From Hyphomonadaceae bacterium (GTDB lineage Bacteria > Pseudomonadota > Alphaproteobacteria > Caulobacterales > Aquidulcibacteraceae), in assembly GCA_009773395.1 (NCBI GenBank), contig WRPI01000002.1, forward strand, positions 48,413 to 112,412: a stretch of 64,000 nt of DNA, written 5' to 3'. Shown here piece after piece: positions 8,644 through 42,270 of the stretch. Numbering within the stretch: the stretch's first letter is position 1; each line of letters starts with the position of its first letter. A program made the translations under genes and the position numbers. Below the pieces are notes generated by a model, which searched no databases, was not told the DNA's origin, and worked only from the letters and a program-made list of their open reading frames with translations.

Positions 8644-8807
8644 TAGAGCGGTCTGCGTTTATCTAGAATCATTTACCCTCGCAATTTTGGGCAATCTTTT
8701 GCACCAATTTCTCCAGCAATATCCCGATATTGCTTGAGAAATTGATACAAAAACCTTTCCCAAAATTGCAGCGGTTAAATGAACCTATCTAAACGCAGAA
8801 CGCTCTA
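8644..8807. repeat. 164-bp near-perfect palindrome (element E1)
   Basis: Left arm TAGAGCGGTCTGCGTTTATCTAG... pairs with the right arm (RC TAGAGCGTTCTGCGTTTAGATAG...). Centre is GCAATATC-CC-GATATTGC. Arms ~80% complementary by eye over ~80 nt. Confidence 0.9.
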
Positions 8808-9926
8808 GCTCATGGTTGCCAATTCGAGTTGCGATTTGGCGCCAGTTTTCTTTCGAATGGATCGCAATTGCGTGCGAACGGTGGCGACGCTATTGCCGCG
8901 TTTTTGCGCAATTTGTGACGGGGCATTGCCGGCTCTAACTTCAAAGAGTATTTCAGCTTCGGCCTGCGACAAGCCATATCTATTTGCGATTAGATTGGGT
9001 TCGCCTTCTAATCCACGGCTTATTTCTTCAAAAACCAAGAGCAAATTGGTTCTACCATAATTAAACAGCCGCAAATTTTGGTTATTTTCATGCCTGTCAA
9101 TCGGTTTGAGTTTAATCGTCGCGAAAGCAGTTTCGAAAGTCGCAGAACCAAGGCGGACAGCTTGCCTTGCACAATTTTCCCAAGCTTCGCCATGAAAAGG
9201 GTAAGTGCCGTTTTGCGCCAATAATTTCTTTGCGTGACTATTAAGTGAAAGCATTTTGCCTACGCCATTGGCAATACCAAATGGCCCGTCTAAATTTTCG
9301 AGTGCTTTGTGATTTTGGGTTGGGTCGCGCGCGATTGCGGCACGAGTGTGAATTATGGTTCCGATGCGCCGTAAATCATCATAAATACTGCCAAATCTCT
9401 CGCAATCTTCATAAGTGAATGGTTCGCCATCATAGGGACGCATTATACCAATCACGTCCCAAAAGGGTTCTTCAGGCCTAATGAGCGCCAAAAAATGTGC
9501 GCTGTGCATGGGAAAGCCATCGCTTGAAATGCGGCGTTCCATGAATTTTTTTGAATAATGTAAATTGGAAGCCAAGGCGCATTTGGGAAAACTGAGCGCC
9601 AATACTTTCTTCATGCGGTTTACGATTAAATCTTCAAAAACGCTAATATCGCTGGCAGTGCAGCCATCGCCTTCAGTCAAGTAAATTTCAAAACCTTTAT
9701 TGGCAAAATTAACACAATAAAAATCGACACCAGTTCCGCGAAACTCAGCGCGTAAGCGCGCTAAAGCATGGTGCCATTTATCGTCATTGTTGCCCAAAGC
9801 GCATTGATAAAGCTCTGCCATAATATCGGCCAAAATCGGATCAATTTGGCTGGTTGAAGGCTTGGGTGCCGGCATATTGTCAGCAAAATCAGTCAAAGAA
9901 GCAATTGGGTAAAAATATTCTGGCAT
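8805..9926 (-). CDS. LuxR-type HTH transcriptional regulator (copy 1)
   Basis: 373 aa; C-terminal YGLSQAEAEILFEVRAGNAPSQIAQKRGNSVATVRTQLRSIRKKTGAKSQLELA. Confidence 0.85.
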   Translation of the reverse strand: MPEYFYPIASLTDFADNMPAPKPSTSQIDPILADIMAELYQCALGNNDDKWHHALARLRAEFRGTGVDFYCVNFANKGFEIYLTEGDGCTASDISVFEDLIVNRMKKVLALSFPKCALASNLHYSKKFMERRISSDGFPMHSAHFLALIRPEEPFWDVIGIMRPYDGEPFTYEDCERFGSIYDDLRRIGTIIHTRAAIARDPTQNHKALENLDGPFGIANGVGKMLSLNSHAKKLLAQNGTYPFHGEAWENCARQAVRLGSATFETAFATIKLKPIDRHENNQNLRLFNYGRTNLLLVFEEISRGLEGEPNLIANRYGLSQAEAEILFEVRAGNAPSQIAQKRGNSVATVRTQLRSIRKKTGAKSQLELATMS

Positions 9927-18042: not shown

Positions 18043-18206
18043 TAGCGCGCCTAACGCTCAAGTTGCACAGTTTTGCCGCGCCCTTTTGCACGATTTTCGG
18101 CAACAAATATTTAGCGAATACTCCAGTATTCACCGCATATTTGTCACCAAAACTCGCACAAAATTGCTGCGGCAAATTCTATGCAACTTGAACGTTAGGC
18201 GCGCTA
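18043..18206. repeat. 164-bp near-perfect palindrome (element E2)
   Basis: Left arm TAGCGCGCCTAACGCTCAAGTTGCACAG... pairs with the right arm (RC TAGCGCGCCTAACGTTCAAGTTGCATAG...). Centre is GAATACT-CC-AGTATTC. Confidence 0.9.
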
Positions 18207-19046
18207 TTCCGCTTCGGCGATATTCGGGGTAGGGGCCTTCAAAAATGCTGGAGCCTCGTCACCAAAGCCTGGGGCAGTGGAGACTGCGTCATTAGAATTG
18301 CGTGGGCCGCGCGGTGGCCGCGAACGCGGTGGACGGCGGCTTGGTTCGCGATTTTCGTTTGAAGTTGCTTCATTACGAGGCTCTGAACCTTGCTCCACAA
18401 CCAAATCTGATTGCGGCGCAAATGATTGTTGTTCTTGGGGCCGATAATTTTCGCCGCGCCCATTGTCATTTTCCTGGCCATTTTCGCCATTATTGCGATA
18501 ATCGGAACGAAAACGATTGCGATTGCGGTTATTGCGGTCACGGTTATTATAGCGGCCATTATTGCCATCATCAGGGCCACGTTCGCCATTATTGCGCTCG
18601 CCATTGTTGCGCTCGCCACGATCATTACGATCATAATTACGATTGCGATTGTCGCGCATTTCGTTTTGCGGACGAGGCTCGCGCGGTTCACGGGCTTGGC
18701 CTTCGCCGGCATCATCACCCGCTTCTTCAGCTTCGTTTTCGCCGCCTTCAAAATCATCATCTTCATCATAATCAGATGGCAGGCCAGCAATTGCCAGTTC
18801 CGAACGCGGTATGAAATTGGGCATTATGCTTTTGATGAGGCGCAAATAATGCTCGGCATGTTGCAAATAATTTTCCGCTAAAACCCTATCACCCGAACCC
18901 ATCGCATCACGACCAGCTTGTTGGTAACGCTCCAAAATCGTTTGTGCTGAGCCACGGACTTTCATGTCTGGACCAACGGATTCATATGCTCGATTTGGAT
19001 TATTATTTAAGGGCTTACCGCGCCCACGACTGCGTTGTCGCTTCAT
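18204..19046 (-). CDS. DUF4167 domain-containing protein with RN/NG-rich low-complexity region
   Basis: 280 aa; N-terminal QRSRGRGKPLNNNPNRAYESVGPDMKVRGSAQTILERYQQAGRDAMGSGDRVLAENYLQHAEHYLR. Confidence 0.93.
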   Translation of the reverse strand: MKRQRSRGRGKPLNNNPNRAYESVGPDMKVRGSAQTILERYQQAGRDAMGSGDRVLAENYLQHAEHYLRLIKSIMPNFIPRSELAIAGLPSDYDEDDDFEGGENEAEEAGDDAGEGQAREPREPRPQNEMRDNRNRNYDRNDRGERNNGERNNGERGPDDGNNGRYNNRDRNNRNRNRFRSDYRNNGENGQENDNGRGENYRPQEQQSFAPQSDLVVEQGSEPRNEATSNENREPSRRPPRSRPPRGPRNSNDAVSTAPGFGDEAPAFLKAPTPNIAEAE

Positions 19047-25697: not shown

Positions 25698-25921
25698 CAA
25701 GGAAATCGCATGTGACTTTGTCCTCCCTTGCAAATCTTCGATTTGCGGGGGAGGTGGCAGCACGAAGTGCTGACGGAGGGGGCATTAGGACACGAATTTG
25801 CGCAGCAAAAACAATAGCGTAAGCTCGCTACGCTCGCGCCCCCTCCGTCTCGCTACGCGAGCCACCTCCCCCGTAACGCTTCGCGTGACAGGGGAGGATT
25901 AACCCATATGCGATTGCCCTA
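25698..25921. repeat. ~220-bp composite inverted-repeat element (R1) between convergent fliJ and flhF
   Basis: Terminal inverted repeats AGG(A)AATCGCATGTG...TCCTCCC / AGGGCAATCGCATATG...CCTCCCC; two inverted modules, 25721-25783 and 25838-25898. Confidence 0.85.
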
Positions 25922-41985: not shown

Positions 41986-42086
41986 GGGACCATTTCGACA
42001 TATTTCGTTGCGAGCCTTGACCTCGCGAGGGAGAAGAAATGATGAGCGCAACAACCAACGCGACACAGCCATTGCCTTGCATAGCC

Positions 42087-42234
42087 TCCCCCCTATTCAT
42101 AGGGGGGTGCCGAGCTTCTGCGAAGGCGGGGGGTAGCGTCGGAAGACAGGTTTCTAAAAATCACCAAATAAACTGGCTATCGCCGCTACCCCCCAGTCTC
42201 GTTTCACTCGACAGCCCCCCTATTAATAGGGGGG
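42087..42234. repeat. Composite inverted-repeat element (R3) between flgL and mnmA
   Basis: tcccccctattcataggggggtgccgag...cgaaggcggggggtagcg (42087-42138) is inverted at 42184-42234 (RC cccccctattaatagggggg...ggggggtagcg). Confidence 0.8.
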
Positions 42235-42270
42235 CGGCTAAGCAAGGTTTGCTTGTGGCGGAGTTGGCTA

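Follow-up and report, generated by a model that had tools for sequence, protein, structure and literature searches.

The 164-nt imperfect palindrome E2, at positions 18043..18206 of the window (the whole stretch of 64,000 nucleotides of Hyphomonadaceae DNA analysed here), is probably a TA-targeted, non-autonomous, MITE-like copy that spread in trans and in which one strand has been kept foldable in single-stranded form. E2 and its relatives are short and non-coding, carry terminal inverted repeats and occur in many dispersed copies, as is typical of MITEs; their membership of this class rests on form (ends, target and dispersal), because a cognate transposase was not found.

E2 runs from TAG to CTA. 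Its left terminal inverted repeat (TAGCGCGCCTAACGCTCAAGTTGCA; 18043..18067, plus strand) starts with a TA presumed to belong to the duplicated target, and the right terminal inverted repeat (18182..18206, minus strand) is likewise TA-ended, its final CTA constituting the stop codon TAG of the minus-strand gene upstream of the element. This gene (18204..19046, minus strand), which takes its stop codon from E2, encodes a 280-aa DUF4167 protein with the C-terminus ...AEAE, and a polysaccharide deacetylase gene (PF01522; 17197..17997, minus strand) lies downstream, 45 nt past the element. The apex is a stem-loop, GAATAC-TCCA-GTATTC (18116..18131), with the central CC in its TCCA loop and with concerted changes in its stem among copies (TAATAC/GTATTA, AATAT/ATATT). 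The coordinates, length, TAG/CTA ends and CC centre given for a 164-bp palindrome in the preliminary description are all exact. Ungapped self-pairing involves 42 of 82 positions, gapped self-alignment yields about 65 Watson-Crick pairs out of 81 plus 9 G.U pairs, and comparison of E2 with its own reverse complement gives 78% identity across the full length (E about 1e-31). On RNA folding, the minus strand, which is the better-folding and selected strand of E2, forms one near-continuous hairpin of about -112 kcal/mol.

The dispersed family that had been proposed from two palindromes in the window was recovered genome-wide. A DNA search of the element's own genome (G000; 2.63 Mb, 99.9% complete) located E2 relatives at about 30 places, and a covariance model built from 25 copies brought the total to about 35 copies and one remnant. 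These copies are spread across at least eight contigs; all are intergenic and they occur in both orientations, with orientation relative to neighbouring genes about random, and many lie at the 3′ end of a gene or in a convergent intergenic gap. At three places (L020, L024 and L027) the same 42-nt insert (AGCCGTAGCGCGTAGCGCGGAGACCTG..) occupies an identical internal position, as expected if copies beget copies. The second palindrome, E1 (8644..8807, minus strand), has the same layout as E2 and is a diverged lone member of the family; its end contains the stop codon (8805-8807) of a gene encoding a LuxR-type (GerE) domain (8805..9926, minus strand). A covariance model from 25 copies, with E1 excluded, recovered it at 92.9 bits (E=1.2e-21). 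Because structure alone gives any palindrome some score, E1 was also compared with 2000 controls obtained by permuting its own base pairs, which preserves both pairing and composition. A sequence-only HMM scored E1 at 43.9 bits versus 8.0 for the best control, and the global alignment of E1 with E2 scored 110 versus 55 +/- 8.4 (maximum 82) for controls with the ends held fixed. E1 surpasses the pair-preserving controls both in the HMM and in direct alignment; E1 and E2 are therefore homologous, as originally suggested from their layout and partial similarity. Inverted repeats at 42075-42247 and 25701-25918 of the window (CCTTGCATAGCC..GGCTAAGCAAGG and GGAAATCGCATG..CATATGCGATTGCC) may be further dispersed elements.

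Outside its own genome the family is represented by one diverged copy in one congener (L054, G001:C5:1000603), detected with the covariance model, which returned no copies in the other three congeners or in 36 further members of the family or order. No E2-like sequence was found by DNA similarity in 60 relatives, and searching the GTDB genome collection, with the element's own genome excluded, for a 21-base core gave no exact match. The congener copy directly follows a gene whose ortholog in the E2 genome is followed by an element of the longer class described below and, 1.5 kb on, by an E2-class copy in the same orientation (both at L050/L082, contig C7). The gene before L054 matches a gene near L050, which would suit orthology of these two copies, but the elements sit at different points.

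Nearly all copies end TA-G[AC]GC...GC[TG]C-TA, and the terminal ends of E2 type can be written TAGAGCGTYRGAYGTYCAARWTG. At about 10 copy ends, corresponding to about a third of the copies and including both copies in the window, the TAG of the element terminates the reading frame of the adjacent gene. The DUF4167 protein also ends ...AEAE in congeners G001 and G003, whose element-free sites are GAA-TAG or GAA-TAA; at another copy (L005), the end of an M16-type peptidase, recognised by sequence alone, falls no more than two residues from the ends of four congener proteins that have no element there. A third such comparison, at L008, gave no result, its gene having no match in the congeners. Thus the proteins of relatives end at the same place or within two residues without the element, a pattern explained by insertion into the TA of a stop codon in a way that leaves the protein whole. 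Duplication of TA on insertion is presumed: TA stands at both ends of nearly all copies, and the empty DUF4167 site of the congeners reads GAA-TA-R where E2 sits, but at the divergence of the congeners (65-80% DNA identity) true TA duplication and TA-rich ends are inseparable.

The E2-type ends are shared with a second, longer class of elements. A pattern comprising only the terminal repeat returned 54 matches (25 + 29), versus 0 for a control pattern, and among those examined the same terminal repeat bounds 5 elements of 339-393 nt. About 30 relatives in this size range (L067, L071, L074, L075, L076 and L078-L105) were identified in the same genome, mostly on contig C7, where they are dense at 250-530 kb. 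Their fold is a basal stem bearing three arms, and their conserved arms are GGAATGGTTTATGG..CCAAAACCATTC, GCGCCCTAGG..CCTAGGGCGC and GAATGGGCTTAAGG..CCATTCC; five loci tested against Rfam gave no match. Such sharing of ends between the two classes is what one would expect if they were unrelated passengers of a single transposition system. At around position 3300 of L068 (C7:323302), an E2-type end lies beside a hairpin unit of another kind (TGTCATCCCCGAAAA..GGGGATGACA); no second end to match it was found.

The hairpin of the E2 class is under selection, as the preliminary description had surmised. In an alignment of 31 sequences, 94.3% of the cells at 72 pairs hold standard pairs, and 52 of these 72 hairpin pairs have changed on both sides, a number that none of 500 shuffles approached; the covariation signal drops sharply and is lost when partner columns are slid by 1-3 positions. 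Covariation extends over all 164 nt, beyond the ends.

This selection is strand-polar, in that one strand only is kept foldable. A purely double-stranded constraint predicts equal numbers of G.U and A.C mismatches, because the two types swap when read on the other strand. With pairs taken from a strand-neutral self-alignment, the reverse strand shows 235 G.U versus 53 A.C mismatches; parsimony on a tree assigns about 65 events from Watson-Crick to G.U and about 15 to A.C, treating as independent changes in copies that are related and may recombine. The ratio of G.U to A.C events is 36:8 from G-C pairs and 30:8 from A-U pairs, and since the excess holds for changes of both origins the polarity is not a simple C-to-T bias; mutational bias was therefore judged an unlikely cause. 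The polarity is also present on terminal branches, the A-U part on core terminal branches alone (12:5) not being significant. The longer class, for which the count used pairs predicted from both strands, is symmetric (24:26) and acts as an internal control. With either RNA or DNA parameters the reverse strand is the more stable in 31 of 31 copies, and its hairpin carries two conserved tandem 5′-UG/GU motifs. Tandem UG/GU steps favour RNA over DNA.

The polarity points to a single-stranded form of one strand, RNA or ssDNA, in the life cycle of the element itself, with RNA the more likely of the two. The element would be a non-autonomous, TA-inserting sequence mobilised in trans by a putative transposase and inserting between genes, frequently within a stop codon, with its TAG ends leaving the host protein intact, as seen for DUF4167 and, to within two residues, for the M16-type peptidase. 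Double-stranded terminal repeats would not be the only form in which its hairpin is kept: one strand (at E2 the minus strand) would fold single-stranded during propagation or expression of the element, more likely as a transcript than as an ssDNA intermediate. Transposition by a transposase is what we infer from the form of the element. In the 99.9% complete genome there was no match to a DDE_3/IS630 transposase, nor to a Y1 (RAYT) transposase, for which control genomes were positive, and no autonomous element or transposase gene with E2-type ends was present among the end-pattern matches; the source of transposase may have been lost or may lie outside the assembly. That the element spreads via, or depends on, a one-strand RNA hairpin, for instance as an RNA recognised by the mobilising machinery, is a more specific proposal that we advance tentatively and regard as rather unlikely; if true, selection on a mobile DNA palindrome would act at the level of RNA and would not depend on host transcription.

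The reading that every copy is retained because it serves the host, either as a functional RNA gene or as a 3′ regulatory hairpin (a terminator, an RNase III site or a stabiliser of mRNA), would accommodate the high stability of the copies (-74 to -112 kcal/mol), their frequent location at the 3′ ends of genes or in the gaps between convergent ones, and the persistence of polarity on terminal branches. We nevertheless consider it unlikely: orientation is about random with respect to neighbouring genes, relatives lack the element at the same sites, and the window containing E1 and E2 yields nothing above the Rfam gathering threshold. The polarity is, moreover, equally strong in copies antisense to the adjacent gene (18:3 G.U to A.C events) and in sense copies (14:5), and since it does not follow the direction of host genes, a single-stranded form belonging to the element explains it better than hairpins carried passively in host mRNAs. 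An in-frame coding insertion of the Rickettsia palindromic element type was rejected: the open frames running through L006 and L026 seem to be chance upstream reading frames, and several of the element's own frames contain stops.

Constraint at the DNA level only, with a transposase that needs the two terminal repeats to match and with arm-to-arm repair, by template switching or conversion, perfecting quasi-palindromes, predicts the strand-symmetric pairing seen in the longer class with the same ends, and is also favoured by the fact that some of the covarying pairs show few G.U intermediates (AU to CG, column 4). Such a process is strand-blind, yet in the E2 class G.U exceeds A.C about 4:1 from G-C and A-U pairs alike, and covariation runs through the whole element rather than the ends alone, making this reading quite improbable for E2. 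Mobilisation of the hairpin as ssDNA, in the manner of REPIN/IS200-IS605 elements or attC sites, does predict strand-specific folding, in agreement with the greater stability of the reverse strand under DNA parameters, and REPINs show compensatory changes (PMC3116915). It is nonetheless highly improbable, given the missing Y1 match, TA-ended terminal repeats that are not a REPIN feature, copies that are dispersed and form no array, and attC-like GTTRRRY/RYYYAAC boxes that are not conserved and whose polarity flips among copies. An attC/integron identity, considered from the GCCTAAC...GTTAGGC of E2, was rejected on account of the same variable, flipping boxes and dispersed copies.

The closest known kinds of element are ERIC, Correia/NEMIS and RUP. 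The ERIC/IRU sequences of enterobacteria are likewise small, intergenic, TA-ended palindromes in many copies with no known transposase (PMC2229807), but measure 127 bp versus 164 nt for E2; highly folded transcripts and an orientation-dependent effect on mRNA have been reported for them (PMC2229807, reviewing De Gregorio 2005). The Correia/NEMIS elements of Neisseria (107/155 bp), likened to E2 by form, have TA ends, terminal repeats of about 24-25 bp and two size classes, and give a long stem-loop transcript (PMC2229807), whereas the longer class described here is three-armed and of 340-390 nt. RUP of S. pneumoniae (107 bp, IS630-Spn1) shares the TA target, inverted ends and intergenic location (PMC2229807), but for RUP an IS630 transposase in the same genome has been proposed as the source, and none was found in that of E2. 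REPIN/RAYT systems resemble the family in their hairpin repeat, compensatory changes and spread within a genome (PMC3116915) and differ in ends and size, and the missing Y1 gene makes a REPIN identity unlikely. According to the review, transposase-driven movement of ERIC-, Correia- and RUP-type sequences itself lacked experimental support (PMC2229807).

The E2 family belongs to a known kind of element and has an unusual strand-polar signature. For TA-ended palindromes such as ERIC and Correia, the mode of movement and the cause of hairpin retention have been an open question. Counting G.U against A.C mismatches in a strand-neutral manner provides a simple sequence test that distinguishes double-stranded ends from a single-stranded hairpin of one strand, and this one genome offers both outcomes in two classes with common ends, the short one being polar and the long one symmetric.
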